This document shows, one piece after another, positions 18,647 through 40,980 of a DNA stretch of 42,948 nt. Position 1 is the stretch's first letter. The number at the start of each line of letters is the position of its first letter. The stretch covers positions 1 to 42,948 of the IMG/VR virus record IMGVR_UViG_3300017969_000026; one strand, written 5' to 3'. Below the pieces are notes generated by a model. It was given only the letters and a program-made list of their open reading frames with translations. It was not told where the DNA came from and did not search any database. The stretch is from a virus. A program made the translations under genes and the position numbers.

Positions 18647-18651
18647 TAAAG

Positions 18652-20718: not shown

Positions 20719-20725
20719 GAATTGC

Positions 20726-20733
20726 GATAAATA
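20726..20733 (+). promoter_or_regulatory. T4-late-type promoter box (GATAAATA)
   Basis: GATAAATA matches TATAAATA at 7 of 8 positions and sits in the 42-base gap between two fibre genes, 27 bases before the ATG at 20761. AGGGG at 20749-20753 is the ribosome site. This is one of the few true intergenic gaps in the structural module, which fits a promoter. Confidence 0.55.
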
Positions 20734-20760
20734 ATATATAAAGCATTTAGGGGTAACAGA

Positions 20761-22263: not shown

Positions 22264-22275
22264 TAGGAAAGTAAA

Positions 22276-23205: not shown

Positions 23206-23216
23206 AATAAAATACG

Positions 23217-23233
23217 CATAAATAGTATAAATG
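23217..23233 (+). promoter_or_regulatory. Two adjacent T4-late-type boxes (CATAAATA, TATAAATG)
   Basis: CATAAATA (23217-23224) and TATAAATG (23226-23233) each match TATAAATA at 7 of 8 positions, inside the 47-base gap before the ATG at 23253. GGAG at 23244-23247 is the ribosome site. Either or both could start transcription of the last structural gene. Confidence 0.55.
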
Positions 23234-23252
23234 AGTTCGTTACGGAGACAGC

Positions 23253-24466: not shown

Positions 24467-24495
24467 TTGACAAAATCCTAAAATCGTTATATACT
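24467..24495 (+). promoter_or_regulatory. Near-consensus sigma-70 promoter for the accessory cassette
   Basis: TTGACA at 24467-24472 and TATACT at 24490-24495 are separated by exactly 17 bases; only one base departs from the bacterial consensus. The expected start point is near 24502, upstream of GGAGG at 24509-24513 and the ATG at 24519. The host RNA polymerase should read it without phage factors, in contrast with the TAAATA boxes of the structural genes. It is the only clear promoter before a run of 17 overlapping genes. Confidence 0.85.
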
Positions 24496-24518
24496 AGTGC
24501 AATAGACTGGAGGCTCTT

Positions 24519-24872
24519 ATGGACGAACGGTTAGAAAAAGCACTTGACTTTAGTAACTTTATGGTTACTATGAATAACCAAAAACGACTTTTAAAAGAAA
24601 AATATTTCGAAGATCTTTTGTATTACACAAACGGTTGTCAGTTTTCTGTAACAAAAGAACTTATCACTTTTGTAGGACTGCTTGTAGACAAAGGGCTAGA
24701 AGAAGCAGTACTTACTGACGATAACGATATTCCAACAAATATTTCTGACTTAGAAAAATTTTACGATGACATTCTAGATGTTTACTTCACAGCATCTAAT
24801 AACTATTTCGCAGAGTACGAAAAAATTAAATCAAATAGGTCGATGGAAAATTTAGTAGATTATGAGCAGTAA
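24519..24872 (+). CDS. Conserved phage protein of unknown function, 117 aa
   Basis: First gene after the sigma-70 promoter, with a strong GGAGG ribosome site. The protein is small, acidic and mostly helical, without membrane segments. It starts MDERLEKALDFSNFMVT and ends with an F-AEYEKIKSNRSMENL helix. I recall similar small proteins (LEKALDFSNY-type start, EYDKL-type end) in T4-like marine phages, always uncharacterised. It overlaps the next gene by 11 bases. No catalytic motif is visible; it may be a regulator or adaptor for the genes downstream, but nothing in the sequence shows this. Confidence 0.75.
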   Translation: MDERLEKALDFSNFMVTMNNQKRLLKEKYFEDLLYYTNGCQFSVTKELITFVGLLVDKGLEEAVLTDDNDIPTNISDLEKFYDDILDVYFTASNNYFAEYEKIKSNRSMENLVDYEQ

Positions 24873-25716
24873 AGGTGTACTACTATTTGCAAGAAATAAC
24901 GATCAAATTGATTATATCAAACAGGCGTATTTTTTAGCAAAACGAATAAGAAAATATTTAGGTGTACCAACGTCATTAGTTACAGATTCTCTTCACTACT
25001 TAGAAAGAGAGTTTGATACAGAAGTTTTTGACGAAGTAATTTCTATAGATCCTTGGTTAATAGACAACCACAGGACTTTTCATGACGGCGCACTAAGTGG
25101 TAGAAGAGCCCACTTTAAAAACCTTGGCAGATATAACGCATACGAATATTCTCCTTACGATGAAACTATTCTTATGGATACTGACTATGTTGTGTCTAAT
25201 AGTTTGCTTAAAAATTGTTTTGGCAGTGTAAACGATTTTGCAATTTACAAAGATAGTATGGACATATCTAATGTACGCAATCCGAGAGAATTTAAGTATG
25301 TAAGTGATAGTAGTGTAGACTTTTACTGGGCAACAGTTGTTTATTTTAAAAAGACAGAAACAAACAAAAGATTTTTTGAATTAATTGCACACATACAAGA
25401 CAACTATGAACACTATCGACGTGTTTATCAAATATCAAGTAAAATGTTCCGAAACGATTTTGCTTTTAGTATTGCTATACATATGATGAACGGGTTTCAA
25501 CAAGGCGGATTTGTATCTCCGTTACCAGGTAAGTTGATGTATACTACTGACAAAGACATACTGTGGGATCTAGAAGAAGACAATATGCTTTTCCTAGTAG
25601 AAAAGGAAAAACATCTAGGAGAGTATACACCTTTACGTACAAGAGGTCAAAGCATACACGTAATGAATAAATTTAGTTTGGTTCGTCAAATAGATAAGGA
25701 GATGTCAAATGGATGA
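24862..25716 (+). CDS. GT8-like glycosyltransferase (GT-A fold), 284 aa
   Basis: The layout is that of glycosyltransferases using a nucleotide-sugar donor: an N-terminal strand GVLLFARNNDQIDYIKQA, then SLVTD near residue 38, an LGRYNAYEYSPYDETI segment, and the metal-binding DxD motif ILMDTDY (Asp106, Asp108). A C-terminal SIHVMNK contains His266 in the position where GT8 enzymes have a metal or phosphate contact. It is paralogous to the next gene (LLFARNND versus VMLAQNND; MDTD versus LDTD). The acceptor and donor sugar cannot be read from sequence. The start overlaps the previous gene by 11 bases. Location is cytoplasmic, given no signal or membrane segment. Confidence 0.72.
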   Translation: MSSKGVLLFARNNDQIDYIKQAYFLAKRIRKYLGVPTSLVTDSLHYLEREFDTEVFDEVISIDPWLIDNHRTFHDGALSGRRAHFKNLGRYNAYEYSPYDETILMDTDYVVSNSLLKNCFGSVNDFAIYKDSMDISNVRNPREFKYVSDSSVDFYWATVVYFKKTETNKRFFELIAHIQDNYEHYRRVYQISSKMFRNDFAFSIAIHMMNGFQQGGFVSPLPGKLMYTTDKDILWDLEEDNMLFLVEKEKHLGEYTPLRTRGQSIHVMNKFSLVRQIDKEMSNG

Positions 25717-26551
25717 TTTTGGCATTGTAATGCTTGCACAAAATAACGATGTTGATGATTATGTTTTACAAGCATGTGTAAATGCTATGAGTATTGCTAC
25801 TACAAACCCGGGCATACCTGTAAGTTTGATTACAAATGATGAAGTTCCAGAAAAATATCATCGTTTCTTTGATCAAATTATAGAAATACCTTGGAATGAT
25901 AGTGCTGAAGAAGAATCTTGGAAAATTAGCAATCGTTGGAAAATATATCATGTAACTCCTTATACTAGAACTTTGGTATTAGATACAGATATGCTTGTAC
26001 TACAAGACATAGACAGTTGGATAAAGTTTTTAGAAAATTATGAAATGTATTTTGTAAGCAACGTCTACACATATCGTGGAGATAAGATTACAGATGATTA
26101 TTACAGAAAAGCATTCACAGCAAATGAATTACCTAATTTGTATAGTGGATTTCATTACTTTAAGAAATGCGATTTTTCACACAAGTTTTATACATGGTTG
26201 GAACTAGTTGTAAACAACTGGGAATTCTTCTACGGACAATATGTAAAAGAACACTATCCAAAACGTTGTAGTATTGATGTAAGTGCAGCTATTGTTAGTA
26301 AGATACTAGATTGTGATACAGAAATTACAAATACAAGAGTGAAATTTCCAAGTTTCACACACATGAAACCAAGAATACAAGATTGGTACGAAGCAATAAA
26401 CAAATGGCAAAACAGAATCAGTGTTTATATGGATGAAGATTGTAAACTTAAATTAGGTAATCACATACAAACTGGTATTTTGCATTATACAGAAAAGGAC
26501 TTTATTGAAGGTGCTGTAATTAAAAGATATGAGGAATTATTAGATGTCTGA
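25709..26551 (+). CDS. GT8-like glycosyltransferase (GT-A fold), 280 aa
   Basis: Paralogue of the preceding gene. It has FGIVMLAQNNDVDDYV at the start, SLITNDEVPEKY, then RWKIYHVTPYTRTLVLDTDML with the DxD pair Asp92 and Asp94, and a C-terminal GILHYTEKD with His259. YSGFHYFKKCDFS in the middle corresponds to the acceptor-side strand seen in this class, where a small residue motif precedes an aromatic stretch. It overlaps the previous gene by 8 bases and the next by 8. Two adjacent, diverged copies suggest two successive transfers in one pathway. The GT-A class is fairly secure; the GT8 label is a resemblance only. Confidence 0.74.
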   Translation: MDDFGIVMLAQNNDVDDYVLQACVNAMSIATTNPGIPVSLITNDEVPEKYHRFFDQIIEIPWNDSAEEESWKISNRWKIYHVTPYTRTLVLDTDMLVLQDIDSWIKFLENYEMYFVSNVYTYRGDKITDDYYRKAFTANELPNLYSGFHYFKKCDFSHKFYTWLELVVNNWEFFYGQYVKEHYPKRCSIDVSAAIVSKILDCDTEITNTRVKFPSFTHMKPRIQDWYEAINKWQNRISVYMDEDCKLKLGNHIQTGILHYTEKDFIEGAVIKRYEELLDV

Positions 26552-27158
26552 ATTAAACTCGTTTTTAGATATGATACAAACATTGCAAGTGTCATCTAAA
26601 ACATTTGTAGAATTTGATCCTGATACAGGAGAGCTTATCAGAGTAGGTAAAAAGGGCAACGAAGAAAATTCGTATGTCGAAGTTGAACCAAACGAAATTA
26701 AAGATATAATGTCTGGTGAAAAAACTATGACAGAATATAAAGTTATTTTTGATATTGGTTTAAAAGAATATGTGCTACGTGAGAAAGGTGATTTAGAAAC
26801 TGAAAATGATCACGTATATAATACACTTTACGAAGTACCTTCTGACATCGATGAAGATTGTGATGTAACAATAATACAAGACAATAGAGAACAATGTTGG
26901 AGGATTAAGGTAAGTGATTCGTTAAGAACTTTTTTAAGATCAGAAGCAGTAAGTATTAACAGTAATATATTCTTTAGTATTACTGCAAAATTTGATCCAA
27001 ATATTTTGTTTAGAGTTTTGCGTTTAAGTGTAAACGATCTAATTTACGATGACGAATATACTTTTCCTTTTGAATATAAGTTTGAAAAGATAAACGACAA
27101 AGTTAGTATCTATACAGCCAAATATTTTGATAGTTATAAACACGAGGTGCTAGTATGA
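26544..27158 (+). CDS. Unknown protein, 204 aa
   Basis: I do not recognise this protein. It is acidic, without signal peptide or membrane segment. It begins with a helix (ELNSFLDMIQTLQV) and FVEFDPDTGELIRVG, continues with YKVIFDIGLKEYVLREK, and ends with a beta-rich half (CWRIKVSD, FFSITAKFDPNILFRVL, YKFEKINDKVSIYTAKY). It overlaps the glycosyltransferase before it by 8 bases and the one after it by 4 (ATGA). Its place inside the cassette suggests a partner or carrier of the pathway, but this is inference from position. Confidence 0.7.
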   Translation: MSELNSFLDMIQTLQVSSKTFVEFDPDTGELIRVGKKGNEENSYVEVEPNEIKDIMSGEKTMTEYKVIFDIGLKEYVLREKGDLETENDHVYNTLYEVPSDIDEDCDVTIIQDNREQCWRIKVSDSLRTFLRSEAVSINSNIFFSITAKFDPNILFRVLRLSVNDLIYDDEYTFPFEYKFEKINDKVSIYTAKYFDSYKHEVLV

Positions 27159-28084
27159 GCAAAAAGTTCAAAGTAATTGACTATGATATTATCTATCTAA
27201 GTTACGATGAGCCAAATGCAGAAAAAAATTACGCAGATTTGTGTAGCAAAGTTCCGTGGGCAAAACGTGTACATGGTGTTAAAGGAAGTGATGCTGCACA
27301 TAAAGCCTGTGCAGAACTTTCAGAAACAGACAGGTTTGTTACTGTTGACGGTGACAATCAAATCAATCCTGAATTCCTTGTACAAGAAATAGATTTTGAA
27401 GAACATGCTGATTTAGAACACAGTGTTATTAGCTGGTGTGGTAAGAATGTAATTAACGGTCTTATGTACGGCAACGGCGGACTTAAATGTTGGCCTAAAG
27501 AATATGTGTTAAACATGCGTACACATGAAAATGCTGATCCAGATAATCCACATGCACAAGTAGACTTTTGTTGGGATTTAAAATATATCCAACAAAACAG
27601 TTGTTATTCGTATGTATACAATAACGAGACACCGCAGCAAGCATGGAGAGCAGGATTCCGTGAGGGTGTTAAAATGGCACTTGATCAAGGTGTAAAACCT
27701 ACACAAGAAGAATTCCTTAAAGGACACTGGAAAAATTTACATAGGTTGTGGATATGGCTTATGGTAGGTGCAGATGTCGATAACGGGCTATGGGCTATTT
27801 ACGGAGCACGTCAGGGACTATACATGACAATGTGTACAGATTGGGATTATGTAAATGTACGTGACTTTGAATACTTAAACGATATGTGGGAACAAGAAGT
27901 AAAATTTATCAAACCAATGTACTTGCACGATGAAGTAAGCGATCTAGGTGAAAAGCTCATGCAAGAATTACAAGTGCCTATTGCAGAAAATCCTTTAGAT
28001 GCACAGCAAAGTAAGTTCTTTAAAACAGTTTATCAAAATCCTAGTCGCAACCCTAACCAACAATTTGTAATTGATCCAGAATGA
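27155..28084 (+). CDS. Glycosyltransferase-like protein (standalone domain), 309 aa
   Basis: The start DYDIIYLSYDEPNAEKNY, then AKRVHGVKG, then FVTVDGDNQI with the metal-binding-type DGD (Asp65, Asp67), and YGNGGLKCWPKEYVL are the signposts of a GT-A-like domain. The same domain forms the C-terminal half of the protein at 40986 (SYNEPNADENW, AKRVHGVKG, VVDGD, YGYGGVKLLPREL), with similarity running over about 220 residues. A later WRAGFREGVKMAL and IYGARQG are also shared. Cytoplasmic. It overlaps its neighbours by 4 bases on both sides. Activity and substrates are unknown; the glycosyltransferase call rests on the order of these motifs. Confidence 0.62.
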   Translation: MSKKFKVIDYDIIYLSYDEPNAEKNYADLCSKVPWAKRVHGVKGSDAAHKACAELSETDRFVTVDGDNQINPEFLVQEIDFEEHADLEHSVISWCGKNVINGLMYGNGGLKCWPKEYVLNMRTHENADPDNPHAQVDFCWDLKYIQQNSCYSYVYNNETPQQAWRAGFREGVKMALDQGVKPTQEEFLKGHWKNLHRLWIWLMVGADVDNGLWAIYGARQGLYMTMCTDWDYVNVRDFEYLNDMWEQEVKFIKPMYLHDEVSDLGEKLMQELQVPIAENPLDAQQSKFFKTVYQNPSRNPNQQFVIDPE

Positions 28085-29454
28085 GTAATGAAAAAAGAAT
28101 TGAGGTACTTGAACAAAAGCGCAAACAGATTAATTCTGTAAGTTGCTCTTTCTGCACGGCTAAATGGCTTCAAACTACACTCTATTTACAAAACGGTTAC
28201 AATCATAGTTGTCACCACCCTGCTCCGCATAAAATTCCTATTAGCGAAATTATGGGCAATCCACATGCACTGCATAATAGCAAGCACAAAAAGAAACAAC
28301 GTGAAATGATGCTTAAAGGTGAGCGTCCTAGTGAATGCGATTATTGCTGGAACATAGAAGATTTAGATAAAAACTACTTTAGTGATAGACATTATAAAAC
28401 TGCTGACTACTGGGCTTGGGATAGATTTGATGAAATAGCAACCAGTGATCCTAAAGAAAATACCTATCCTAGTTACTTAGAAGTTAGTTTTTCAAATGCG
28501 TGTAATTTTGCGTGTGCATACTGCTCTCCAGAAATTAGCAGCAAGTGGATGGAAGATATAAAGCAACACGGACAGTATCCTGTTTTGCACGGATCGCACA
28601 ATTTAGATTACTTAAAAAAGACACAAAAGTTTCCTTATTTAAACAGCGAAGTAAACCCTTATGTAAAAGCATTTTGGAAATGGTTTCCAGATGCATTACC
28701 GCATTTAAAAGTATTACGATTAACAGGCGGTGAACCTACAATGAGCAAGGAAACATGGCGTTTGCTAGACATGCTTATTGAGAATCCTATGCCTGAATTG
28801 GAAGTTGCTATTAACACTAACCTTTGTGTGCCAAACAATCTTATTGATAAGTTAATTGAAAAAATTAACATGCTAAAAGATAAAGTAAAAAAGATAGATG
28901 TGTATACAAGTTTAGAAAGCGTAGGTGCGCAAGCCGAATATGCAAGAGACGGACTAGATTATAAGCAATGGATTGCTAATGTAGAACAGGTACTTGACGA
29001 AACTGAAAGTACAGTTGCAATTATGACAACAGTAAACATTTTAAGTTTGCCTAGTTTTGAAAAATTTATAGATCTTGTAATGGACTTTCGTAAAAAATAT
29101 AACAAAGCATTTGAATATAATCGTATTCCGATAAGCATTAATTACTTGCGTTGGCCTCCACACTTACAGTGTACATTGCTAGACAAGGAAGATCGTTTGC
29201 TTTATGCAAATGCAATTGAATCTACTTGCGAAGGTTGGTTGAAATATCATAGTCCAGATAAGTATGCAAGATTGTATCTTGAAGAATGGGATCAAATAAA
29301 AAGATTTTGCGATTATCTACGTAATACAGATCCAGCTATAGAGCATAGAAAAGATTTTGTTGCATACATACAAGCATACGATAAAAGACGTAGAAAAAAC
29401 TTTAAAAAAGTTTTTGAAGATTACAGAGAGATTATAGAGGACTGGAATGCCTAA
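28081..29454 (+). CDS. Radical SAM enzyme with N-terminal twitch-like Cys domain, 457 aa
   Basis: The radical SAM cluster motif is Cys141-x3-Cys145-x2-Cys148 (NACNFACAYC), and the SAM-binding TGGEP is at 215-219. In front of it lies a Cys/His-rich domain: Cys22 and Cys25, then CHHPAPHKIP starting at Cys44, ALHNSKHKKK, and GERPSECDYCW with Cys86 and Cys89. That layout resembles a SPASM/twitch domain, which normally follows the core and probably holds an auxiliary Fe-S cluster. I recall a named family of N-terminal-twitch radical SAM proteins with unknown substrates. The next gene is a close paralogue with the same spacing. It starts with an ATGA overlap. It is a cytoplasmic, oxygen-sensitive enzyme type; the reaction is unknown. 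Confidence 0.88.
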   Translation: MSNEKRIEVLEQKRKQINSVSCSFCTAKWLQTTLYLQNGYNHSCHHPAPHKIPISEIMGNPHALHNSKHKKKQREMMLKGERPSECDYCWNIEDLDKNYFSDRHYKTADYWAWDRFDEIATSDPKENTYPSYLEVSFSNACNFACAYCSPEISSKWMEDIKQHGQYPVLHGSHNLDYLKKTQKFPYLNSEVNPYVKAFWKWFPDALPHLKVLRLTGGEPTMSKETWRLLDMLIENPMPELEVAINTNLCVPNNLIDKLIEKINMLKDKVKKIDVYTSLESVGAQAEYARDGLDYKQWIANVEQVLDETESTVAIMTTVNILSLPSFEKFIDLVMDFRKKYNKAFEYNRIPISINYLRWPPHLQCTLLDKEDRLLYANAIESTCEGWLKYHSPDKYARLYLEEWDQIKRFCDYLRNTDPAIEHRKDFVAYIQAYDKRRRKNFKKVFEDYREIIEDWNA

Positions 29455-30892
29455 AAAACCTGATGAAAGTTTAATCCAATACAGAGACCGAGTGATTAAT
29501 TCAAAAAGTCCTAGTTTCTGCGGAGCAAAATGGTATAATGCTACTACATGGTTAGGCAGCGGCACAACCGCAAGTTGCCACCACCCTCCTGCACATAAAA
29601 TTCCAGTAGAGGAAGTAGAAGCTGATTTTACAGCAATTCATAATACAAAGCATAAAAAAGAAATGCGCCGTCAGATGCAAGTCGGGCAGCGTCCAAGAGA
29701 ATGTGAGTATTGCTGGAAAATGGAAGATATGGGCAAGGATGCTGTAAGTGACAGAGTTTTTAAAACAATTATATATGATGACGATGAGTTACAACGTGCT
29801 TACGATTTAAATTATACAGAAAGTGTTCATCTTAAAACATTTGAAATCGCATTTGATCGTACTTGTAATCTTGCATGTTCTTACTGCAATGCTAGTTTCA
29901 GTACTACTTGGGCAAAAGATATTAAAAAGCATGGCGAATACAAAAATCTTGTAAGTGACGGTGCAGGAGCATTCCGTCAAGATGGTAGTTGGACACAGCC
30001 TTACAAAGATGACGAAGACAATCCTTACATTCAAGCGTTTTGGAAATGGTGGGATAACGGACTAAGCAGTAGCTTAGAAGAATTGCGTATTACTGGTGGT
30101 GAACCTTTAATGAGTGGAAACACTTGGAAACTAATTGACTGGTTTGAATCGCAAAAGACAAAAATGAGATTTGCTATAAACAGTAATTTAATTGCTAAAA
30201 AAGACATTATAGACAAACTTATTAACAAGTCTCAAGGAATGCATCACTTTGAAATTTACACTAGTTGTGAAAGTGTGGGTAAGCAAGCTGAATATATTCG
30301 AGACGGTTTAGAATACGACTTATGGTTATCTAATGTTAAAAGAATACTAACAGAAGCAAATGCAAAGTTACATATTATGATGACAATAAACAGTTTATGT
30401 TTGTTTAGTATTACTGAGTTTTTAGACCAAGTGTATGAATTGAAAGAACTAACTGATAGTAAGTGGCCGACAGTAAGTTTAAACTTATTGAGATTTCCTA
30501 GTTTTCAATCTCCACTTGCATTGCCTAATCATATAAAAGATGAAATGCATAAAAAACTGTCAACATGGTATGAAGCAAATAAAGACAAAGAATTATGGCA
30601 CGAGTTTGAACGTGCAAGCATAGAACGTCTTATAGACTATCTTGTAACAGTTGATGCTCCGCATCGTAGAACTAGTAATCCTATTACACTTTGGAGAGAC
30701 TTTAAAACATTTTATCAGCAGTACGATATCAGAAGAAATAAAAGTTTATATGTGTTTCCTAAGTTACTTACAGACTGGGTAGAAAGCATACCAGACACCG
30801 ATGTTGAAATACAAGAACTTGCAGATAAAGAAGGATGGGTACTAAAACCTGATCCTAAAAATATAGACGAACCTTTGGCAACTTATGACTAA
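29447..30892 (+). CDS. Radical SAM enzyme with N-terminal twitch-like Cys domain, 481 aa
   Basis: Tandem paralogue of the preceding gene. The N-terminal domain has Cys25, CHHPPAHKIP from Cys44, and RECEYCW with Cys86 and Cys89, at the same residue numbers as in its neighbour. The core has Cys140-x3-Cys144-x2-Cys147 (RTCNLACSYC) and TGGEP at 216-220. A KHGEYKNLVSD segment after the cluster and the FWKWW stretch correspond to HGQYPVLHG and FWKWF in the neighbour. The C-terminal 60 residues are longer and unmatched. Start overlaps the previous gene by 8 bases. All cluster ligands are present, so it should be active; the substrate is unknown, and diverged sequence after the core suggests a different one from its twin. 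Confidence 0.88.
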   Translation: MPKKPDESLIQYRDRVINSKSPSFCGAKWYNATTWLGSGTTASCHHPPAHKIPVEEVEADFTAIHNTKHKKEMRRQMQVGQRPRECEYCWKMEDMGKDAVSDRVFKTIIYDDDELQRAYDLNYTESVHLKTFEIAFDRTCNLACSYCNASFSTTWAKDIKKHGEYKNLVSDGAGAFRQDGSWTQPYKDDEDNPYIQAFWKWWDNGLSSSLEELRITGGEPLMSGNTWKLIDWFESQKTKMRFAINSNLIAKKDIIDKLINKSQGMHHFEIYTSCESVGKQAEYIRDGLEYDLWLSNVKRILTEANAKLHIMMTINSLCLFSITEFLDQVYELKELTDSKWPTVSLNLLRFPSFQSPLALPNHIKDEMHKKLSTWYEANKDKELWHEFERASIERLIDYLVTVDAPHRRTSNPITLWRDFKTFYQQYDIRRNKSLYVFPKLLTDWVESIPDTDVEIQELADKEGWVLKPDPKNIDEPLATYD

Positions 30893-32072
30893 TAACGTAT
30901 GTATAGCACCCTGGATACATTTACACACATGGCCTAACAACAATGTGTATCCTTGTTGTCTGACAGCAATGGAAGACACTGTTGGTAATTTAAACGATAA
31001 TACCTTAGCTGAAATTTGGAACAATGAAGCAATGAAAAAATTGCGCACACAGTTCCTTAACAATGAACAACCAGAAAGTTGTAAGCGTTGTTTTATTAAC
31101 GAAAAGCACGGCGGTACTAGTTTACGTAAACATATGAACGAAACGTTTGACCGTCACATGCATCTACTAGATAAAACTAATCCAGATGGCACGTTAGATG
31201 AACTAAGCATACATTACTGGGATTTTAGATTTTCTAATATCTGTAATATGCGTTGTAGAAGTTGTGGTCCACAATTGAGTACAGGCTGGTATGAAGACCA
31301 AAAAAAATTATGGGGACAACTTCCTAATGATTTACCTGACCCTGGCAAAAACATTAATATGTGGCAACAGATAGAACCGTTGTTTGATAAAGTAGAAGAT
31401 ATTTATTTTGCAGGAGGCGAGCCCTTGCTTATGGAAGAGCATTATCGTATACTTAATAAGTTAGACGAAATGCAAAAGTACGATACAATTATACGCTACA
31501 ATACTAACTTTAGTCAGATGAAATATAAAAAATTAGATGTTTTAGAAATATGGCCAAAGTTTGATAGAGTTGTTGTAGGAGCAAGTATTGACGGATTCGG
31601 AGAACGTGCAGAATATATTCGTAAAGGTACAGACTGGAATAAAATAGTTACCAACAGAGAAAAAATGAAGCAACAAGCACCTGGTGTTGAGTTTTTTGTA
31701 AACTTTACAGCAAGTGTACAAAATGCATATCACATTGTTGACTTTTATGAATGGGCAATGGAAGCAAAGTTCATAGAAAATGCAGGAGATTTTCATATTA
31801 ATATTGTGCAGCATCCTGAACACCTAAGTTTACAAATTTTACCTGACTATATGAAAAAAGAACTTACAGAAAAATATGAAGCAATAGCAGAAAAATCCAA
31901 AGCATGGGGAAATGAAAGATACAGTCATTGGTTGTCTTTAGCAAAATATATGAATGATGCTGATACTTCACATCTTATACCCGAGTTCAAAAAGAATATC
32001 GAAATGGTTGATAGAATTAGAAATGAAGATTTTGCAACTACGTTTCCAGAATTACAGGATTTAGTAAAATGA
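30885..32072 (+). CDS. Radical SAM enzyme with N-terminal SPASM/twitch domain, 395 aa
   Basis: The first 70 residues look exactly like a SPASM/twitch domain: CIAPWIHLHTWP (Cys6), VYPCCL (Cys24, Cys25), VGNLNDNTLAEIWN, MKKLRTQFL and CKRC (Cys66, Cys69). In most SPASM enzymes this block is at the C-terminus; here it precedes the core. The core follows with Cys120-x3-Cys124-x2-Cys127 (NICNMRCRSC) and AGGEP at 176-180. It is related to the 32763 protein rather than to the two CHHP-type genes upstream. Start overlaps the previous gene by 8 bases. The complete ligand set argues for function; members of this type modify peptides, sugars or unknown substrates. Confidence 0.9.
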   Translation: MTNNVCIAPWIHLHTWPNNNVYPCCLTAMEDTVGNLNDNTLAEIWNNEAMKKLRTQFLNNEQPESCKRCFINEKHGGTSLRKHMNETFDRHMHLLDKTNPDGTLDELSIHYWDFRFSNICNMRCRSCGPQLSTGWYEDQKKLWGQLPNDLPDPGKNINMWQQIEPLFDKVEDIYFAGGEPLLMEEHYRILNKLDEMQKYDTIIRYNTNFSQMKYKKLDVLEIWPKFDRVVVGASIDGFGERAEYIRKGTDWNKIVTNREKMKQQAPGVEFFVNFTASVQNAYHIVDFYEWAMEAKFIENAGDFHINIVQHPEHLSLQILPDYMKKELTEKYEAIAEKSKAWGNERYSHWLSLAKYMNDADTSHLIPEFKKNIEMVDRIRNEDFATTFPELQDLVK

Positions 32073-33887: not shown

Positions 33888-34933
33888 TGTCTACACAAGG
33901 TCAAGATTTTTTTGATGAAACATGGTTTGACGATCACGTTGTAATTTTGTTTGATGCACCTATGGAAAGTCTAGAGTGGGATCTTAAATTTAGTGAAGAT
34001 GAACTACAAGAATGGATGCTTTCTAATCCTAGCGGAGATAAGCACATTGCTCAGAGTGTAGTTGAAGACTTTTCTGTAAGATCATTGATTACGCCTATGG
34101 GCGGAGAAAATAAAGTTGTACATCATTTTGAAAAAATTATGTGGCTTGTACAAAGTTACTGTCGTGGAGGCTGGGCAAATCCTGTTAAAGCAGTAAATCA
34201 TATGGACAATGGCAAATATCTAGTTCATCCAGGAACTAACAGATGTGTAGCAGGTAAGTTTTTAGGATGTAAAGTAATGCCTTTGATGCTTTCTGTACAC
34301 AAAGGACAAAAAACATATAAAGAATTAGAAGAGATTGGTGTTGCTATAGAAAGTGAACAAGATTTAAGAAAATGTCTTTGGAGCAAGTACGATATTGTAT
34401 TTCGTACCGAAATTGAAGAAAAACTTTATGTAAACGGTGAATTCACAGGTGAGATGACCAAAGATTTTACATATGAATTTTTGGGTCCTGATGCTTGGCC
34501 TAGTAAAACACTACCTACAAACTACGAAGGCTTTACTCAAACTAAATTGAATCAATGGAGTGATTTAGTATTTAGAAGTTTGCCAATGGTAGTAAATAAT
34601 CCAAATAACGTTAACCTACACACTGATATGTTAAACTTCCAGTTTTATGATAGAACAAAAGAGTTGTTTAATAGTTTTGAAATTTTACAAAGTAATTTAC
34701 AATTATCAGAGCTACCTAAAAAATGTGCATACAGCGGATTAAGCATACATTTAGAAAAAGAATTTTTAGGTGATATATTTGAGTTATTGTTATTTGTAGA
34801 TCCACAAAATGCTGTAACATGCACCAAAGACAGGAAAATTATAATAGTAAATAATGAACATCCTGCAAATCGGAATGGAATAAGTTGGGATAATCCGTTA
34901 ATTATTCCAGATAGTTATGTCGACAAGTTTTAA
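33887..34933 (+). CDS. Unknown protein with ParB-like motif, 348 aa, GTG start
   Basis: The start is GTG with a strong AGGAGG (33875-33880), its first base shared with the previous stop (TAGTG). Near residues 105-130 the segment NPVKAV ... YLVHPGTNRCVAGKFLG resembles the core of ParB/Srx-type domains, where a GxxR motif precedes a short helix and contacts phosphate. The rest (WDLKFSEDELQEWML at the start; KTYKELEEIG; DMLNFQFYDR) is not familiar. ParB/Srx-type folds include CTP-using, ATP-using and nuclease proteins. It sits between radical SAM genes, so it may act on the same product. The motif match is short, and the fold is only a candidate. Confidence 0.45.
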   Translation: MSTQGQDFFDETWFDDHVVILFDAPMESLEWDLKFSEDELQEWMLSNPSGDKHIAQSVVEDFSVRSLITPMGGENKVVHHFEKIMWLVQSYCRGGWANPVKAVNHMDNGKYLVHPGTNRCVAGKFLGCKVMPLMLSVHKGQKTYKELEEIGVAIESEQDLRKCLWSKYDIVFRTEIEEKLYVNGEFTGEMTKDFTYEFLGPDAWPSKTLPTNYEGFTQTKLNQWSDLVFRSLPMVVNNPNNVNLHTDMLNFQFYDRTKELFNSFEILQSNLQLSELPKKCAYSGLSIHLEKEFLGDIFELLLFVDPQNAVTCTKDRKIIIVNNEHPANRNGISWDNPLIIPDSYVDKF

Positions 34934-35774
34934 TGTACAAGATCATATTAGTTATAGGAACAAAAGATACCTCAAAGCAAACATAGGTAATCCTTTATTG
35001 CTGGGTTTAGGTGTTGTAGAAATAAATCCTACAGAATTATGCAATCGTACTTGTAGTTTTTGTCCTCGAAGTGACCCTAAAGTTTATCCTAATAGAAATT
35101 TACAAATGGATATAGGTATTGCAGAAAAAATAGTAGCAGACTTGTCTTCTGCAAATTATACCGGCGATATTCATATTACAGGCTTTGGCGAACCTACTCT
35201 TAATCCCAACATATTTGAACTAATAAAAATATTCAGCAAGTTTTACACAGAAACTATCACCAACGGAGATAGGCTCTTGTCAGGACAAATTACACACCAG
35301 CAGTTTAGTGATGCTGGACTAAGCATGTTAATTGTAGATTGCTATGATGGTGACGAACAGTATTACAAAATGCAAGACCTGTTAAAAGATTGTAAAATTA
35401 ATTATAGGATACGCAATCATCATGATACTGGAGAGCCAGAATTAATTAAACAATACAACTATAACAACAGAGGCGGCCTAGTGCAAGAAGCAGAAACACT
35501 CTTTCGTCCTTGTTGGCTTCCTTTTTATAAAGCCTTTGTAGACTGGGACGGTGAAGTAAGATTGTGCTGCAATGATTGGTCAAGAAGACAAGAACCGTTC
35601 GGTAATATAAAGACTAAAAATTTTGCTGATATTTGGATGTCACAAAAATTTATCGATGTAAGAAATAAATTAAACAAGGGCGAGCGATCAAAATTAAGTG
35701 CTTGTAAAAATTGTAATACAAGTGGAACGCAAAACGGATTTGAAAGTGTAAGTTTATGGCAGAAAATTTTTTAG
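34917..35774 (+). CDS. Radical SAM/SPASM-type protein, 285 aa
   Basis: Canonical order, unlike the four upstream genes: radical SAM core first, Cys cluster domain last. The cluster motif is Cys42-x3-Cys46-x2-Cys49 (TELCNRTCSFCPRS), with ITGFGEPTLN at 87-95 in place of the usual TGGEP. The C-terminal SPASM-like block contains PCW (Cys199), GEVRLCCND (Cys217-Cys218), GNIKTKNFADIWMS and CKNC (Cys263, Cys266). At 285 residues it is short for this family. It overlaps the preceding gene by 17 bases and the next by 19. Related enzymes include sugar and peptide modifying ones; substrate unknown. Confidence 0.85.
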   Translation: MSTSFNVQDHISYRNKRYLKANIGNPLLLGLGVVEINPTELCNRTCSFCPRSDPKVYPNRNLQMDIGIAEKIVADLSSANYTGDIHITGFGEPTLNPNIFELIKIFSKFYTETITNGDRLLSGQITHQQFSDAGLSMLIVDCYDGDEQYYKMQDLLKDCKINYRIRNHHDTGEPELIKQYNYNNRGGLVQEAETLFRPCWLPFYKAFVDWDGEVRLCCNDWSRRQEPFGNIKTKNFADIWMSQKFIDVRNKLNKGERSKLSACKNCNTSGTQNGFESVSLWQKIF

Positions 35775-36736
35775 TGAAAGGTGAGTTTGAATGTTTAGAG
35801 TTTCCGAGATTAGCAAATGTTTTAGATTTACATTATGACGGCCCTCAGGCATTTCAAATTTGCGAACATGTTAGCGGTATTGGTGAAATAGAAAAAGTAA
35901 ATGATCTTCCTTTAATAATATTCCACACAGAAGGTGATTCAAAATATATTGATATAAGTTATTTCCAGCAACAAGGAACTGTGATACATTGTAATGCTAA
36001 GATTAGCAAAGGAAAGTTTTTCAATTATTGGGCATATGACTATCTTACACATATAAAAACAAAAGGAGTAAAAACAAATAATACAAATACTTTTGCTCCT
36101 AAATTTTTATGTCTAAATGGTAGACCTGATTGGCATAGGTACTACACACTCCAGCGTCTTATGGATAAGAATTTATTAGAACACGGATTAGTAAGTTTTC
36201 TAAATAGATACGATCAACTTGAAAACGATGTATATTATCAAGAATTTAAAGATAGGTATCCTCATCCTACTGTTACAATAGATCATATGAGAGCAAATAA
36301 AAACAATTTAGTTTTAGATAGATCAAATAGAGAAATACACAAAAACGACAGACTACACGATTCTTGGATATATGAACAAACTAGTATTAGTTTAGTAACA
36401 GAAACTTATCCCGAAGCAGAAAGAGGACTGTTTATCACAGAGAAAACATGGAAGCCTATTGCTAATTGTCATCTAGCAATATATATTGGACAGCCTGATA
36501 CGCTACAGTTTTTACGTGCATCAGGATTTGACACATTTGACGATATCTTAGATAACACGTATGATACAATTAAAGATGATTTATCACGTTTTGAAGCAGC
36601 ATACGATTCGTTAAGTAAATATCTTGCTAGTATAGACAACATAGACAAAGAAAAAATACAAAAACGTTTATCAGCTAACCAAGAAAAGTATTTGAATATG
36701 AGCATAGATCACGGGCAGGTTAACACATGGGTTTAA
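35756..36736 (+). CDS. Glycosyltransferase-like protein with TEK-KPI C-terminus, 326 aa
   Basis: Residues 116-145 read KFLCLNGRPDWHRYY then DKNLLEHGLVSFL, and the C-terminal part SLVTETYPEAERGLFITEKTW with KPIANCH (Thr228-Lys230 in the centre) is followed by FLRASGFDTFDDIL. The same order occurs in the proteins at 37539 and 38848. In the fucosyltransferase-type (GT10) fold, a TEK-like motif in the C-terminal half binds the nucleotide-sugar donor, which is the closest known pattern I can name. These proteins are common in marine phages and uncharacterised. It overlaps its neighbours by 19 and 10 bases. Cytoplasmic by lack of signal peptide. Confidence 0.55.
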   Translation: MAENFLVKGEFECLEFPRLANVLDLHYDGPQAFQICEHVSGIGEIEKVNDLPLIIFHTEGDSKYIDISYFQQQGTVIHCNAKISKGKFFNYWAYDYLTHIKTKGVKTNNTNTFAPKFLCLNGRPDWHRYYTLQRLMDKNLLEHGLVSFLNRYDQLENDVYYQEFKDRYPHPTVTIDHMRANKNNLVLDRSNREIHKNDRLHDSWIYEQTSISLVTETYPEAERGLFITEKTWKPIANCHLAIYIGQPDTLQFLRASGFDTFDDILDNTYDTIKDDLSRFEAAYDSLSKYLASIDNIDKEKIQKRLSANQEKYLNMSIDHGQVNTWV

Positions 36737-37545
36737 AAAAGTTTTATATATTCGGTGGTTGTAGTTTTACAGACATGCCCGGTAGTTGGGCAAGAGTGAT
36801 CCAAGAAGAAGTACTAGGAAAGACCCCTTCGCGTAATGTAAGTAAGAGTGGATCTGGAAATAGATTTATAGCAAACGCTGTTATAGACTGTGCATTGAAA
36901 GCTGAACGAGAAGGGTATATACCTGACATATCAGTTATGTGGAGTGCGCCTAGTAGAGTAGAGTTTCCAATACACGAAAAAGACACACCTTTTGCAAGTC
37001 AGTTGTTTAACAGAAACAAACTAGCTGATAATGATTTCAATCCTGGATTGTTTTGTACAGAATCTGCACTAGGAGAGTTTCAACGTATAACAGAAAACTA
37101 TTGGTTGCTAAACGGCGGAATAGTAAGCGAAAAAACAAAGTGGAGCGATATAGAAGGAATTGATTTACAGTATGTTGATGCATTTAGATCCTATATGCAT
37201 TATTTTTGGAATCAAAATAATATGTGGCAACAGACTTTAACAAATATTCTTCTTGTGCAACAGATGTGTGAATTAAAAGGTTGGGATTATAGATTTACAA
37301 CATTTAGGGCATATGTAAAAGAATATAAAACATGGTGCGCTAACCAATTTGTAACCTTACAAGATGAAATTAATTGGAAAAAGTTTTTATTTACAAATAT
37401 CGAAGATGGCGGCTTGCGTGAATATACTTTAGATAATCTTAATACTTGGGATGACGGCTATGATAATCATCCAAGTCACGAAGCTCACAAAGACTTTGTA
37501 TACAATTTTTGGTTGCTTCATCATAAAGGAGTATACACATGCTAA
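36727..37545 (+). CDS. SGNH-hydrolase-like protein, 272 aa
   Basis: It starts with KKFYIFGGCSFTDMPGSW (block I, Ser13), and NVSKSGSGNRFIANA is a block II type segment with a Gly and Asn in place. VMWSAPSRVEF stands where block III's N-x-D strand would be. The end reads YDNHPSHEAHKDFVYNF with His248, His251 and His254, of which one likely serves as the catalytic His after Asp246. It is the second SGNH-type gene of the cassette and not closely similar to the one at 32069. The overlaps are 10 and 7 bases. An esterase or acyl-handling role near the sugar genes is inferred. Confidence 0.58.
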   Translation: MGLKKFYIFGGCSFTDMPGSWARVIQEEVLGKTPSRNVSKSGSGNRFIANAVIDCALKAEREGYIPDISVMWSAPSRVEFPIHEKDTPFASQLFNRNKLADNDFNPGLFCTESALGEFQRITENYWLLNGGIVSEKTKWSDIEGIDLQYVDAFRSYMHYFWNQNNMWQQTLTNILLVQQMCELKGWDYRFTTFRAYVKEYKTWCANQFVTLQDEINWKKFLFTNIEDGGLREYTLDNLNTWDDGYDNHPSHEAHKDFVYNFWLLHHKGVYTC

Positions 37546-38858
37546 CACTTTACTATCAAAGTGGAATGGATAAAGGAAAGTGGATACCTAATAGTGTTCC
37601 TAGAGAACTTAGAACTAGGGCCGCAGTAAAACAAAACTTATTTAAAAGTGTTAAGCCAAAATTTATTACAGAAATATGCGACTACCTTGATATTGAATAT
37701 AAAAGGGTTACTCCAGACACTTGGGCGGGAGAGCCTGCATTTTATCATGTAGAAATTGATTGGATAGATCAAGCATTTGTTTATAGAAATGTTTTTGAAC
37801 ACATTGATGAGCAGCCTTTGAATTTACTAAGAAGCCTAGATAGTAAATTAAAATTATTACTTTGGTTTCCTAATGAAGGATTTACACTTAACATGCCAAG
37901 GTTTATAGATATAATAGACTTTTGTTTAAAAGACTTAGGTATACCTGGACATAAAGTTTTCTTAGTATTTGGTGATATAAACATAGAAAAGAACTTTAGG
38001 TATTGGCGCAAAGCAAAAGGATTACGGGAAATAAGTGTTTACGGCATGGATAGTTTTGAAGCTACCTATAACTATGAAATTACTCAAATGGATAGGCAGC
38101 CGTTAGACGAACAAACATTTTTAAATTTTGACGAACCTAAGCGTAAACGTTTTATTTTTAAAAATGCAAATCCTAGATCACAAAGAGTGTTTTTTGCTGC
38201 TGAGTTTTACAAAAGAGATTTGTTACAATATAGTTATTATAGTTGGTTAAACAGATATTACGAACCTCACCTTGGTAGATTTGCAAAAGAGTCTATGTAT
38301 AAAGACATTAGGAAATATTGTTTTAATGATGATCATCATGCTAGTTTAGAACAACCTTTGGATAAATTTTTAGAAGGTGCTCCTTATATTATAGATTATG
38401 ATGGATATGAAATTGAACACGGTTTTAATCAACGTGCATTGATTAATAAACAGTACTTACATACTGATTTTTCTTTTGTTACAGAAACAACATATGAACC
38501 TGCTGGTGATGAAGACGTTCTTTTTATAACTGAAAAAATATATCAACCTATTGTAAACTTTCATCCTTTTTTAGTAGCAAGTCAAATTAATACACTTTCA
38601 TTCTTACGAAAGTATGGGTACGTTACTTTTCCAGAGTTGTTTGACGAAACATACGACGAAGTTGAAGACATAAAAGTTAGAAGTAAACTATTAATAAGAA
38701 ATGTTGAAAATATAATAAACGGCGAAAAAGATAAAATATTAGGAAGCCAGTATATCAAAGACAAGTGTGTTTATAATAGAAACATATTTTTTGAAAACAA
38801 AGGTAAACAAAAATGGCTTGATGTTATAAAATGGTTGGAGACTACACATGCATTATGA
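37539..38858 (+). CDS. Glycosyltransferase-like protein with TEK-QPI C-terminus, 439 aa
   Basis: The longest of three paralogues. The signature VTETTYEPAGDEDVLFITEK with YQPIVNFHPF and LSFLRKYGYVTFPELFDETYDE in the C-terminal third aligns with the 35756 protein, and FIFKNANPRSQR then KRDLLQYSYYSWLNRY stands where the relatives have LCLNGRP-HR and DKNLL. The N-terminal 200 residues are a separate region (HVEIDWIDQAFVYRN, LLWFPNEGF, KVFLVFGDINI) that may be the acceptor-binding half. It starts 7 bases before the end of the previous gene, with AAAGGA upstream. Glycosyltransferase assignment is by pattern and neighbourhood only. Confidence 0.55.
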   Translation: MLTLYYQSGMDKGKWIPNSVPRELRTRAAVKQNLFKSVKPKFITEICDYLDIEYKRVTPDTWAGEPAFYHVEIDWIDQAFVYRNVFEHIDEQPLNLLRSLDSKLKLLLWFPNEGFTLNMPRFIDIIDFCLKDLGIPGHKVFLVFGDINIEKNFRYWRKAKGLREISVYGMDSFEATYNYEITQMDRQPLDEQTFLNFDEPKRKRFIFKNANPRSQRVFFAAEFYKRDLLQYSYYSWLNRYYEPHLGRFAKESMYKDIRKYCFNDDHHASLEQPLDKFLEGAPYIIDYDGYEIEHGFNQRALINKQYLHTDFSFVTETTYEPAGDEDVLFITEKIYQPIVNFHPFLVASQINTLSFLRKYGYVTFPELFDETYDEVEDIKVRSKLLIRNVENIINGEKDKILGSQYIKDKCVYNRNIFFENKGKQKWLDVIKWLETTHAL

Positions 38859-39837
38859 TAAAGGATTTGATGCTACAACTATTATAGGTGTTCATGATTT
38901 AACAATCAAAGAAATGTTAAAAGCAAAATGTAAACCAGGGACTTCATTTATTAATTCTACTTGGATAGAAAGAGATGACGATCTTAAAGCATTACTAGCA
39001 TCTAATCCTGAAAAGATTGTTTGTTACAGTGGACCTGATTGGGAAAACAGGGTCTGTAGATCAAAAGCAAACGATGCAATAGGAAGTCATCCTAATGTAG
39101 TACGTTTCGGTAATTATGATGGTGATCATTATTTTAGTTTTTGGTTAGACTTTGTATACGAACATTGGGACAAATACAATAACCCGGATTGTTTTGATAT
39201 GGTCAATAATGATATCAAAAAAGTTTACATGTGTTTAAATCGAAAACCGCACATGCATAGAGTAGAACTAATAAAACATTTAAGCGATAAAAATTTATTA
39301 GACTACGGATATATAAGTTTAGGAAAATTTGATAATCCTTGGGACTACAAAGGATTACCTGTACCTATTACATTACCTGTAGATGTAAAAAATGAAGAAG
39401 GTGATCATGCAGTAGCAGGAACCGCAGGCGGAATTACAAATGATATTACAAGTCTAGGACTTCGCAGTAATTGGAATTCTCACTTTCTCAACATTGTAAG
39501 CGAAACTACGATACATACAAATGTGTTCTTGAGCGAGAAGATTTTTAAACCTATTATCGGCTTGCGTCCTTTTGTTGTACTTGGTGATAATAACGTATAT
39601 AAAATACTACACAGTTGGGGCATTGATACGTTTGATGATTTATTCGGAAAAGGATACGAGCATCAGTGGCATACAGATAGGATTAAATGGATTGGAAATA
39701 TTATTCAAAACTACAAGCAAAAAAAAGATTTGAAAGAACTATTGATAAGCCTTAAACCTAGATTAGAACACAATAAAAAAATGTTGCTAAGAGCAGCAAA
39801 GAAGAATAGAAAGTTTTTGGAAGAGGTTAAGTTTTAA
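38848..39837 (+). CDS. Glycosyltransferase-like protein with SEK-KPI C-terminus, 329 aa
   Basis: Third paralogue of this type. VYMCLNRKPHMHRVEL then SDKNLLDYGYISLGKF matches LCLNGRPDWHR then DKNLLEHG in the 35756 protein. The C-terminal part NIVSETTIHTNVFLSEK with IFKPIIGLRPFVV and LHSWGIDTFDDLFG follows the same pattern, with SEK replacing TEK. Between the two lies a loop rich in Gly and Ala (GDHAVAGTAGGITN). It shares its last base with the ATG of the dehydrogenase. The three paralogues could add successive sugars; there is no direct evidence for acceptor or donor. Confidence 0.55.
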   Translation: MHYDKGFDATTIIGVHDLTIKEMLKAKCKPGTSFINSTWIERDDDLKALLASNPEKIVCYSGPDWENRVCRSKANDAIGSHPNVVRFGNYDGDHYFSFWLDFVYEHWDKYNNPDCFDMVNNDIKKVYMCLNRKPHMHRVELIKHLSDKNLLDYGYISLGKFDNPWDYKGLPVPITLPVDVKNEEGDHAVAGTAGGITNDITSLGLRSNWNSHFLNIVSETTIHTNVFLSEKIFKPIIGLRPFVVLGDNNVYKILHSWGIDTFDDLFGKGYEHQWHTDRIKWIGNIIQNYKQKKDLKELLISLKPRLEHNKKMLLRAAKKNRKFLEEVKF

Positions 39838-40964
39838 TGAAAGTTGCATTTATCGGATTAGGAAAGTTAGGATTACCTTGCGCAGAAGTAATTGCAGAAA
39901 AAGGTCATATGGTTAACGGTTATGATATAGAAAAGCGCAAAACTAACCGTGTACTACAGTTTCCTACTATAGAAGGAGCAGTACAAGGTTGCGACATTGT
40001 TTTTGTTGCAGTGCCTACACCTCATGATCCTGCGTATGACGGAAGAGCCCCGACTGCACATTTAGAACCTAAAGATTTCTCTTATGATACTGTAAAGGAA
40101 GTATTGGCAGAAGCAAACAGGAATATGAATAAAGATCAGTTACTGGTTCTGATTAGCACAGTATTGCCGGGTACTACTCGTAGAGAATTTATCGATCTTG
40201 TTACTAGACCGAGATTTGTTTATAACCCTTATCTTATTGCAATGGGCAGTGTTGCTTGGGATATGGTTAATCCTGAAATGGTAATGATAGGTACTGAAGA
40301 CGGTACTGAGACAGGTGACGCAAAAGAACTTGTAGACTTTTATAAAACTATAATGGAAAACGATCCACGCTATGTAATTGGTACTTGGGACGAATGTGAA
40401 TGTATCAAAGTATTTTACAATACATTTATTAGCACTAAGATAGGTCTTGTTAATATGATACAAGATGTTGCACAAAAGCAAGGCAACATAAATGTTGATA
40501 TTGTTACAGGTGCCTTACGTGATAGCACACAACGTATTATGGGTCCAAGTTATATGAAAGCAGGTATGGGAGATGGCGGAGCATGTCATCCACGTGATAA
40601 TATTGCACTGCGTTACATGGCAGATAAGTTACATTTAGGATATGATATATTTGATAGTGTAATGAACGCAAGAGAAATACAAGCAAAAAACATGGCGATT
40701 GAAATATTAAAGTACGGTAACAAAATACAATTTAGCAGCGACAGTTACAAACCGGGAGTAGAATACATAGACGGTAGTTACAGTTTACTTGTACAACACT
40801 ACGTTAAAGAACTGGGCGGCTGGGTTGTTAACGAAAATCCAAGTGTATTTGTACTAGTACACGATGGCGACGAAGTACCAGAAAACGTTACAGTGTTTGA
40901 TCCTTGGAGATCTTACACAGGTAAAAACAAGTGTATTCATTACGGAAACACTAGACAAAACTAA
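39837..40964 (+). CDS. UDP-sugar 6-dehydrogenase-type enzyme, 375 aa
   Basis: Member of the UDP-glucose/GDP-mannose dehydrogenase family, which oxidises the C6 alcohol of a nucleotide sugar to an acid with two NAD+. Residues 1-12 have the Rossmann GLGKLG motif; STVLPGTT is at 107-114. Lys201 in STKIGLVN and Cys250 in GGACHPRDN match the catalytic Lys and Cys of the family, where the usual text is GG-S/T-C-F/L-PKD; here His and Arg replace the Phe/Leu and Lys. The C-terminal domain ends FDPWRSYTG, as expected of the nucleotide-sugar binding end. At 375 residues it is shorter than the usual 390-450. It would supply an acidic sugar donor to the cassette's transferases. The sugar cannot be told apart between UDP-glucose and UDP-HexNAc types. 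Confidence 0.85.
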   Translation: MKVAFIGLGKLGLPCAEVIAEKGHMVNGYDIEKRKTNRVLQFPTIEGAVQGCDIVFVAVPTPHDPAYDGRAPTAHLEPKDFSYDTVKEVLAEANRNMNKDQLLVLISTVLPGTTRREFIDLVTRPRFVYNPYLIAMGSVAWDMVNPEMVMIGTEDGTETGDAKELVDFYKTIMENDPRYVIGTWDECECIKVFYNTFISTKIGLVNMIQDVAQKQGNINVDIVTGALRDSTQRIMGPSYMKAGMGDGGACHPRDNIALRYMADKLHLGYDIFDSVMNAREIQAKNMAIEILKYGNKIQFSSDSYKPGVEYIDGSYSLLVQHYVKELGGWVVNENPSVFVLVHDGDEVPENVTVFDPWRSYTGKNKCIHYGNTRQN

Positions 40965-40980
40965 AAAAGTGTTGTATAAT
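40952..40980 (+). promoter_or_regulatory. Near-consensus sigma-70 promoter, possibly leaderless
   Basis: TAGACA (40952-40957) and TATAAT (40975-40980) are 17 bases apart; the -10 box is perfect and the -35 has one mismatch. The -35 box lies in the end of the dehydrogenase gene. Transcription is expected to begin near 40986-40987, right at the ATG of the next gene (40986). No ribosome site is seen before that ATG. Confidence 0.7.

Follow-up and report, generated by a model that had tools for sequence, protein, structure and literature searches.

What does a phage gain from five radical SAM enzymes and a set of sugar-related enzymes encoded directly behind its tail genes? The question is raised by an IMG/VR viral contig whose 42,948 bases form the window analyzed here. 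Its cassette consists of 17 genes on the + strand between positions 24519 and 40964 (Table 1). All 16 of 16 junctions are overlaps (in order 11, 8, 8, 4, 4, 8, 8, 4, 8, 1, 17, 19, 10, 7, 11 and 1 nt), and a 21-nt gap separates the cassette end from the next gene, which starts at 40986. This layout, with overlaps of 1–19 nt, reproduces that of an earlier reading of the sequence (the original prediction). Comparison with related loci reveals that the conserved unit is a five-gene glycosyltransferase (GT) core, u117-GT8a-GT8b-u204-GT309, joined to a changeable set of radical SAM genes.

Four scans for relatives each returned at least 571–599 confirmed matches among ~600 candidates, a yield that led us to reject the view of the cassette as a rare viral oddity; more than 500 viral stretches encode relatives. 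The best 80 loci per scan were analyzed, a sample that is biased toward close relatives and in which some contigs appear in more than one scan. Genes in the relatives were called as greedy longest-ORF (open reading frame) picks, and radical SAM genes were recognized by profile or by a CxxxCxxC motif in ORFs of >150 aa. The GT309-seeded sets comprise 62 and 60 of 79 loci, with L147 left out and three loci without a labelled GT309 dropped; the GT8a-seeded set comprises 51 of 77 loci, with L003, L147 and L339 left out. Among the 62 GT309 loci that extend far enough upstream, 58 have u117-GT8a-GT8b-u204 directly ahead of GT309; on the downstream side, radical SAM genes are present in 54/60 GT309-seeded and 50/51 GT8a-seeded loci. 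Orthologues of the first two radical SAM genes, rA and rB (≥50% identity over 80%), follow GT309 in five and eight of the 60 loci, respectively. When rB was the seed (62 of 80 loci with >4.5 kb upstream), rA was next upstream in 57 and GT309 was upstream in 52. The core synteny together with the low orthologue counts shows a GT core linked to the tail genes and usually trailed by radical SAM genes, the identity of which changes.

The 3′ half is variable as well. By BLAST, SGNH1, SGNH2, the ParB-like gene and rE were each found in five of the 80 rB loci and UGDH in 15; looser profiles applied to all loci then gathered detected 54 SGNH2-like, 31 rE-like, 12 SGNH1-like and five ParB-like ORFs. 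The nine loci of the rC scan comprise two near-identical to the window (L002, L003), four at 81–82% that keep the gene order as far as their contigs reach (L004, L005, L006, L010) and three at 56% that keep the 5′ half, the remainder being different (L007–L009). The original prediction had proposed a dedicated multistep pathway and had asked whether gene set and order are conserved. Sugar and radical SAM genes do travel together and the order of the core holds, but the 17-gene set is not fixed; we rejected a fixed 17-gene pathway because rA and rB orthologues and the genes of the 3′ half vary among relatives.

Radical SAM genes are more numerous still in some relatives, which are uncultured T4-type phages. 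One of them (G008) carries 16 within 38.7 kb and another (G005), which encodes a T4-type terminase, carries 13, the same counts as with PF04055. Matches to PF04055 range from 5 to 20 among 18 large records that were picked for carrying such genes, so that these counts give no frequency; the minimum belongs to a contig that ends inside the cassette (G003). The five genes that had been singled out for their number are thus present, but relatives reach 20, and a phage with 12 has been published. Against the G008 counterparts, dN/dS (the ratio of nonsynonymous to synonymous substitution rates) ranged from 0.018 (rB) to 0.156 (SGNH2) for 13 of the 17 genes; no dS value could be obtained for u117, GT8a, GT309 and TEK2, and dS exceeded 1 in 13 of 13 computed cases, which makes the ratios rough. 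The 13 genes are under purifying selection.

The head of the cassette carries a sigma-70-type promoter, TTGACA-17-TATACT, at 24467–24495 (+), an 11/12 match. A second 11/12 sigma-70-like match at 40952–40980, ahead of the gene at 40986, may mark the start of another unit in the window. Since sigma-70-like matches are not enriched in the region (78 versus a shuffle mean of 81.9), the promoter at 24467 proves little from the window alone, and the relatives supply the evidence. A match of at least 11/12 to TTGACA-N16-18-TATAAT lies upstream of u117 in 106 of 179 distinct regions (239 u117 genes minus identical upstream ends), with ~0.4/179 expected at 11 matches from base shuffles. These shuffles preserve base composition only; the biological control is provided by the genes upstream of u117, of which 569 (≥150 aa) were used that are mostly tail-type, though not individually identified as tail genes. 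With a slightly different filter, the promoter heads 104 of 175 distinct u117 loci versus 9/569 of the upstream genes in these loci. For the T4-late motif TATAAATA the distribution is the opposite, with 1/175 u117 loci versus 55/569 upstream genes. When only gaps of 25–150 nt are considered, the promoter is found at 104/169 u117 genes versus 7/234 upstream genes, and TATAAATA at 0/169 versus 53/234.

In one relative, G005, 10 of 72 gene heads carry an 11/12 promoter. Besides u117, seven of the nine genes so headed were identified, encoding a DnaB-like helicase, an SbcD-type nuclease, a late sigma factor, an AAA ATPase, a DUF2201/VWA protein, a 5′-3′ exonuclease and GTP cyclohydrolase I. The late motif heads two genes each in G005, G003 and G008, one of them structural-like in G003 and G008. 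From these motifs we infer that an early-type unit lies within a late region. The genes after u117 in relatives are closely packed (median gap –7 nt), yet 39/1122 genes further downstream have an 11/12 promoter, indicating later promoters in some relatives, where the whole stretch need not be a single unit. The proposal of one strong promoter for one unit is thus strengthened by the recurrence of the promoter and the 16 overlaps and weakened by these downstream sites.

Matches to Pfam Radical_SAM and/or SPASM in all five predicted radical SAM proteins, two of the Radical_SAM scores being under the Pfam cut-off, bear out the original assignment. Four of them, rA–rD, belong to the N_Twi_rSAM family (NF033640) by motif and by score, each exceeding the curated threshold of 170 bits, which rE does not reach. 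No protein in 14 control genomes scored above it. The CxxxCxxC motif is present in all five enzymes and is kept in 1126 of 1127 N_Twi-like ORFs of 340–520 aa from the gathered loci, cellular ones included and redundancy kept. A PDB sequence search with the N_Twi profile at E ≤ 0.001 gave one match, the peptide-maturing enzyme SkfB (E 7.5e-4). We know of no member of the family with an assigned reaction.

Among the sugar-related enzymes, the nucleotide-sugar dehydrogenase is borne out by family matches. Pfam and PHROGs searches with the supposed transferases and PDB profile searches with GT309 and TEK gave nothing credible. AlphaFold models were built from alignments of relatives for GT309 and TEK2 only. 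The first ~160 residues of the GT309 model align with GT-A enzymes (best VIA Z 9.6, rmsd [root-mean-square deviation] 3.2, 138 aligned), with nucleotidyltransferases of similar fold scoring close behind. Foldseek returned 13 matches at E ≤ 0.001 with low TM-scores of 0.2–0.4. Many of the structural neighbors are GT-A folds, among them SunS/ThuS and the PBCV-1 capsid glycosyltransferase. The model therefore supports a GT-A-like assignment of GT309, which we leave broader at the family level and which agrees with its earlier description as a further GT-like protein. Over residues 1–439, the TEK2 model matches mostly GT-B enzymes among the 50 rows listed (VIA Z 9.7–12.9). The top rows are effectively tied (T4 β-glucosyltransferase 12.9, with rmsd 5.1 and 297 aligned; GT10 fucosyltransferase 12.3; TarM 12.2), and Foldseek alone gave nothing below E 0.001 (best E 0.026). 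The three TEK proteins, originally called transferase-like paralogues, are indeed mutually homologous, and the GT-B-like prediction applies to TEK2. For the pair labelled GT8-like there is no Pfam match; a weak similarity to glycogenin (E 0.14, profile positions 17–116) is seen for GT8a only.

Table 1. Coordinates of the cassette genes and their neighbors in the window
Feature	Position	Strand	Basis or remark
Giant protein, 5293 aa	52..15933	+	Probable virion structural protein; position matches the giant structural protein of Phosso/Atu_ph07 (position only)
s201	15955..16560	+	phrog_11259; homologues in the jumbo phages Phosso and Atu_ph07 (55% identity)
Five tail/structural-type genes (691, 688, 500, 309, 403 aa)	16571..24464	+	Similar order in relatives
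u117, small conserved core protein	24519..24872	+	Profile and alignment evidence
GT8a, glycosyltransferase-like core protein	24862..25716	+	Weak glycogenin similarity; invariant D106 and D108
GT8b, GT8a paralogue (~27% identical)	25709..26551	+	Placed by homology
u204, core position	26544..27158	+	Conserved order
GT309, GT-A-like core protein	27155..28084	+	AlphaFold model pLDDT 87.2; Foldseek, VIA-align
rA, radical SAM with N-terminal twitch domain	28081..29454	+	NF033640 (N_Twi_rSAM), 328.7 bits
rB, radical SAM with N-terminal twitch domain	29447..30892	+	NF033640, 302.7 bits
rC, radical SAM/twitch	30885..32072	+	NF033640, 415.8 bits
SGNH1, "SGNH-like" by eye only	32069..32770	+	57% identical to G008 counterpart
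rD, radical SAM/twitch	32763..33887	+	NF033640, 353.9 bits
"ParB-like" by eye only	33887..34933	+	Confined to near relatives
rE, radical SAM with C-terminal SPASM domain	34917..35774	+	NF033640 only 47.5 bits, under cut-off
TEK1, TEK2 paralogue	35756..36736	+	Homology
SGNH2, "SGNH-like" by eye only	36727..37545	+	Without family match
TEK2, GT-B-like glycosyltransferase fold	37539..38858	+	AlphaFold model pLDDT 85.7; VIA-align
TEK3, TEK2 paralogue	38848..39837	+	Homology
UGDH, nucleotide-sugar (UDP-glucose-type) dehydrogenase, last cassette gene	39837..40964	+	Family matches
543-aa protein with GT309-like part	40986..42617	+	34% to GT309 counterparts; own promoter-like site

Of the upstream products, the 691-aa protein contains a Phage Tail Collar domain and the 688-aa protein (s688) matches virion structural PHROGs; the 309-aa protein has no PHROG match. 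Downstream, ORFs related to the 543-aa protein recur behind the core in relatives. The labels SGNH-type, for two proteins, and ParB-like in the original prediction found no family match. A hydropathy scan (19-residue window, mean >1.6) detected no membrane-type segment in any cassette gene, and Rfam and tRNA searches of the window gave nothing useful. A PDB profile search with u117 gave nothing credible; u117 was rejected as the precursor of a RiPP (ribosomally synthesized and post-translationally modified peptide), its alignment having no Cys-rich or repeated core.

Cultured phages place the locus in a wider context. PF04055 matches in seven of them, some under the Pfam cut-off, numbered six in Vibrio phage K566, four each in Sinorhizobium phage Phosso and Agrobacterium phage Atu_ph07 (three and two above the cut-off, respectively), one each in HTVC008M and Munch, and none in Vibrio 2.275.O and Bellamy. 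Searched by tblastn against 50,697 phage records, rA gave one and rB two weak matches, and the ParB-like protein, TEK1, GT8a and GT309 gave none (u117, GT8b and u204 were not among the queries); distant relatives were found in 39 records for rC, 31 for UGDH and 60 for s201. In Phosso, a giant structural gene is followed directly by the s201 homologue (55%) and then by a gene with an s688-like part. Atu_ph07 has the same slot order, with two small genes between the giant gene and the s201 homologue. The s688-like N-terminal part is 39–41% identical over ~145 residues, and closely packed genes, including the four PF04055 matches in each phage, follow. These radical SAM enzymes are of other types, however, no GT core family was found there, and the Phosso cluster, the one examined for it, includes a cupin. 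The slot behind the tail genes thus accommodates radical SAM genes in two different ways, which might reflect a shared role or a favored insertion place. KVP40-like Vibrio phages also have clustered N_Twi-like radical SAM genes, with four ORFs in the K566 stretch, but these are ~22–24% identical to rC and no GT core family was found in 31 kb.

Similar gene combinations have been described. According to the passages of PMC7029224 on these genes, pelagimyophages, myophages near T4-like cyanophages, carry GT8 genes and radical SAM cassettes in a host recognition cluster, a structural-region island with tail fibers that lies between VrlC and the neck gene gp14. UDP-glucose dehydrogenase is placed among the lipopolysaccharide (LPS) genes, and the GT genes are interpreted as serving modification of the host O-chain (PMC7029224). 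The cassette likewise belongs to a variable island of the structural region that combines tail-type, GT and radical SAM genes. The same passages present the pelagimyophage cluster as non-syntenic, in contrast to the ordered core of the GT309 loci, and its middle and late promoters as not predictable (PMC7029224). The isolate HTVC008M differs further: it has a single radical SAM match and no core family in 34 kb, and tblastn with GT8a and with GT309 found nothing in it. The marine T4-like genome TARA_ERS488813_N000010 resembles our relatives in its many radical SAM genes, 12, interpreted as belonging to iron-sulfur metabolism; the section on these genes describes no cassette or sugar link (PMC5332604). 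In its part on such clusters, a review of jumbo phages covers GT clusters with tailoring enzymes, thought to pre-empt other phages (PMC7824862); the terms radical SAM and SPASM are absent from it. Radical SAM and GT genes are prominent in Tasman Sea phages in the pertinent part of PMC7150976, and a radical SAM protein is mentioned for one cluster of alphaproteobacterial phages in that of PMC10783043. A phage with 12 radical SAM genes and GT8/radical SAM host recognition clusters are therefore already in print, in the parts of these papers cited. Within the scope of our searches, four findings are new, namely the ordered core, the contrast of early and late promoters, the range of 5–20 and the link to cultured Rhizobiales phages; neither the ordered core nor the promoter contrast was found in the searched literature, outside which lie most subscription papers and all preprints.

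Radical SAM genes of these kinds also occur in other settings. In five loci (L193, L194, L195, L198 and L202), rA-rB stands behind several genes of ~190–250 aa rather than the GT core, and some of these loci have TEK and UGDH. An Elusimicrobia metagenome-assembled genome (MAG) has tandem rows of rC-like radical SAM genes (L212, L222, L225 and other CAIRTQ contigs); six stand consecutively in L212, where no other ORF of ≥60 aa was picked. Several rA/rB/rC-like genes each are found on Oligoflexia and Bacteriovoracaceae MAG contigs (L204, L213, L233). The MAG contigs that carry the core (L205–L207) are probably phage contigs, and we infer no host from them. Among the large records, G005 has two tryptophan-halogenase-type genes, the second with a carbamoyltransferase gene beside it, and G003 has one halogenase-type gene (L032, G005:52861-58235, and L043:1458-3158). 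In G008, two B12-binding radical SAM genes flank a redoxin gene, with two QueC/PP-loop-like proteins encoded nearby (L018:7001-12816), and a TctA transporter gene lies at the contig end (L018).

We favor, with a probability of roughly 0.4, a model in which soluble enzymes, made early, edit a glycan of the host surface and are passed on together with the tail genes. In these large T4-type phages, host RNA polymerase would transcribe the early-type operon directly behind the tail genes ahead of those adjoining late genes. The GT8-like pair and the GT-A-like core enzyme, aided by the GT-B-like enzymes and the UDP-sugar dehydrogenase, would attach sugars to an acceptor, such as a precursor of the LPS core or O-chain, at the cytoplasmic face of the host envelope. 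These sugars or attached groups may be altered by the twitch radical SAM enzymes through epimerization, dehydration, dehydrogenation or formation of new C–C or C–S bonds. A surface changed in this way would keep competitors from adsorbing and sister virions from re-adsorbing, and adjacency to the tail genes would allow receptor-reader and receptor-changer to be exchanged together. The early-type promoter, the soluble GT-like enzymes, the UDP-sugar dehydrogenase and the tail-adjacent position fit such early editing, and joint exchange beside the tail genes is consistent with a core that is conserved while the radical SAM set varies.

Several observations weigh against this model. The cassette encodes no flippase or membrane enzyme; GtrABC-type seroconversion, by comparison, needs a membrane flippase and a bactoprenol transferase, and the membrane scan covered the cassette genes. 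The GT8 assignment is weak, and acceptor, sugar and product are all putative. An 11/12 site is lacking in 73 of 179 distinct u117 loci, and the predicted early timing rests on motifs; an enzyme made early could still act later on virion proteins. Radical SAM and sugar genes also occur apart, as the original prediction had required for its own refutation, albeit in part of the relatives: no radical SAM gene was found in the available stretch of 5/60 GT309 loci, rA-rB stands without the GT core upstream in 10/62 rB loci, and clusters of radical SAM genes that lack these GT families are present in a KVP40-like phage and, in the slot itself, in the two Rhizobiales phages. The Rhizobiales clusters indicate that the slot could have roles other than glycan work.

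The main rival holds that the enzymes glycosylate and radical-modify the tail-fiber or adhesin proteins encoded upstream, diversifying or hardening them. It explains the position of the core directly behind tail-type genes, seen in relatives too, equally well and can draw on the radical SAM clusters at the matching place in Phosso and Atu_ph07, even though the enzymes differ, on the protein glycosyltransferases SunS/ThuS and the PBCV-1 capsid enzyme among the GT309 neighbors, and on SkfB as the one PDB match of the N_Twi profile. It is disfavored mainly by the promoter class of the cassette, early and thus contrary to the tail-gene motif, and we consider it possible though distinctly less probable than glycan editing. 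Alternatively, the radical SAM array might make a metabolite or modified peptide directed against competitors or host defense, or a cofactor. Tryptophan-halogenase-type, carbamoyltransferase, B12-binding radical SAM, redoxin, TauD and QueC/PP-loop-like genes in relatives are in keeping with such a small-molecule pathway, as is a cyanophage cluster with a halogenase and carbamoyltransferases for which, in the part of PMC7824862 on it, polysaccharide decoration or a secondary metabolite is proposed. The halogenase and carbamoyltransferase genes of G005, however, lie >80 kb from the cassette, the u117 alignment speaks against a precursor, and between 24519 and 40964 no base is left uncovered by genes and free for a short precursor gene, a distant one being still possible; we regard this pathway as unlikely.

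Two further explanations appear less probable again. A hypervariable slot could have gathered unrelated genes that have no joint function, in line with the strong variability of the 3′ half between relatives, but the conserved order and promoter, the overlaps and the purifying selection make an opportunistic island improbable. T4 DNA glucosyltransferases are GT-B enzymes, and early GTs and radical SAM enzymes might similarly modify phage DNA bases. The early-type promoter would suit this role, and T4 β-glucosyltransferase is the top structural row of TEK2, albeit by <1 Z over GT10 and other GT-B rows. With GT309 being GT-A-like, the cassette lying beside tail genes and so many different radical SAM genes seeming to exceed what a base pathway would need, DNA hypermodification is the least probable of the explanations considered.

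Carried further, the model of early host-surface glycan editing would describe, in a widespread lineage of large uncultured phages, a heritable "lock-changer" tied to its "key": an early GT core with an exchangeable array of ~5–20 radical SAM enzymes, welded to tail-fiber genes, that writes sugar chemistry otherwise absent from the host and thereby decides which phage adsorbs next. We put this extended form forward as a tentative and rather doubtful proposal. Radical SAM enzymes catalyze reactions that rank among the most difficult in biology, and in these phages they take up an unusual share of one region. With its recurring promoter, its ordered core and relatives cultured on Sinorhizobium, the system offers a practical route to the purpose of phage radical chemistry and to the question of joint inheritance of receptor recognition and receptor change.

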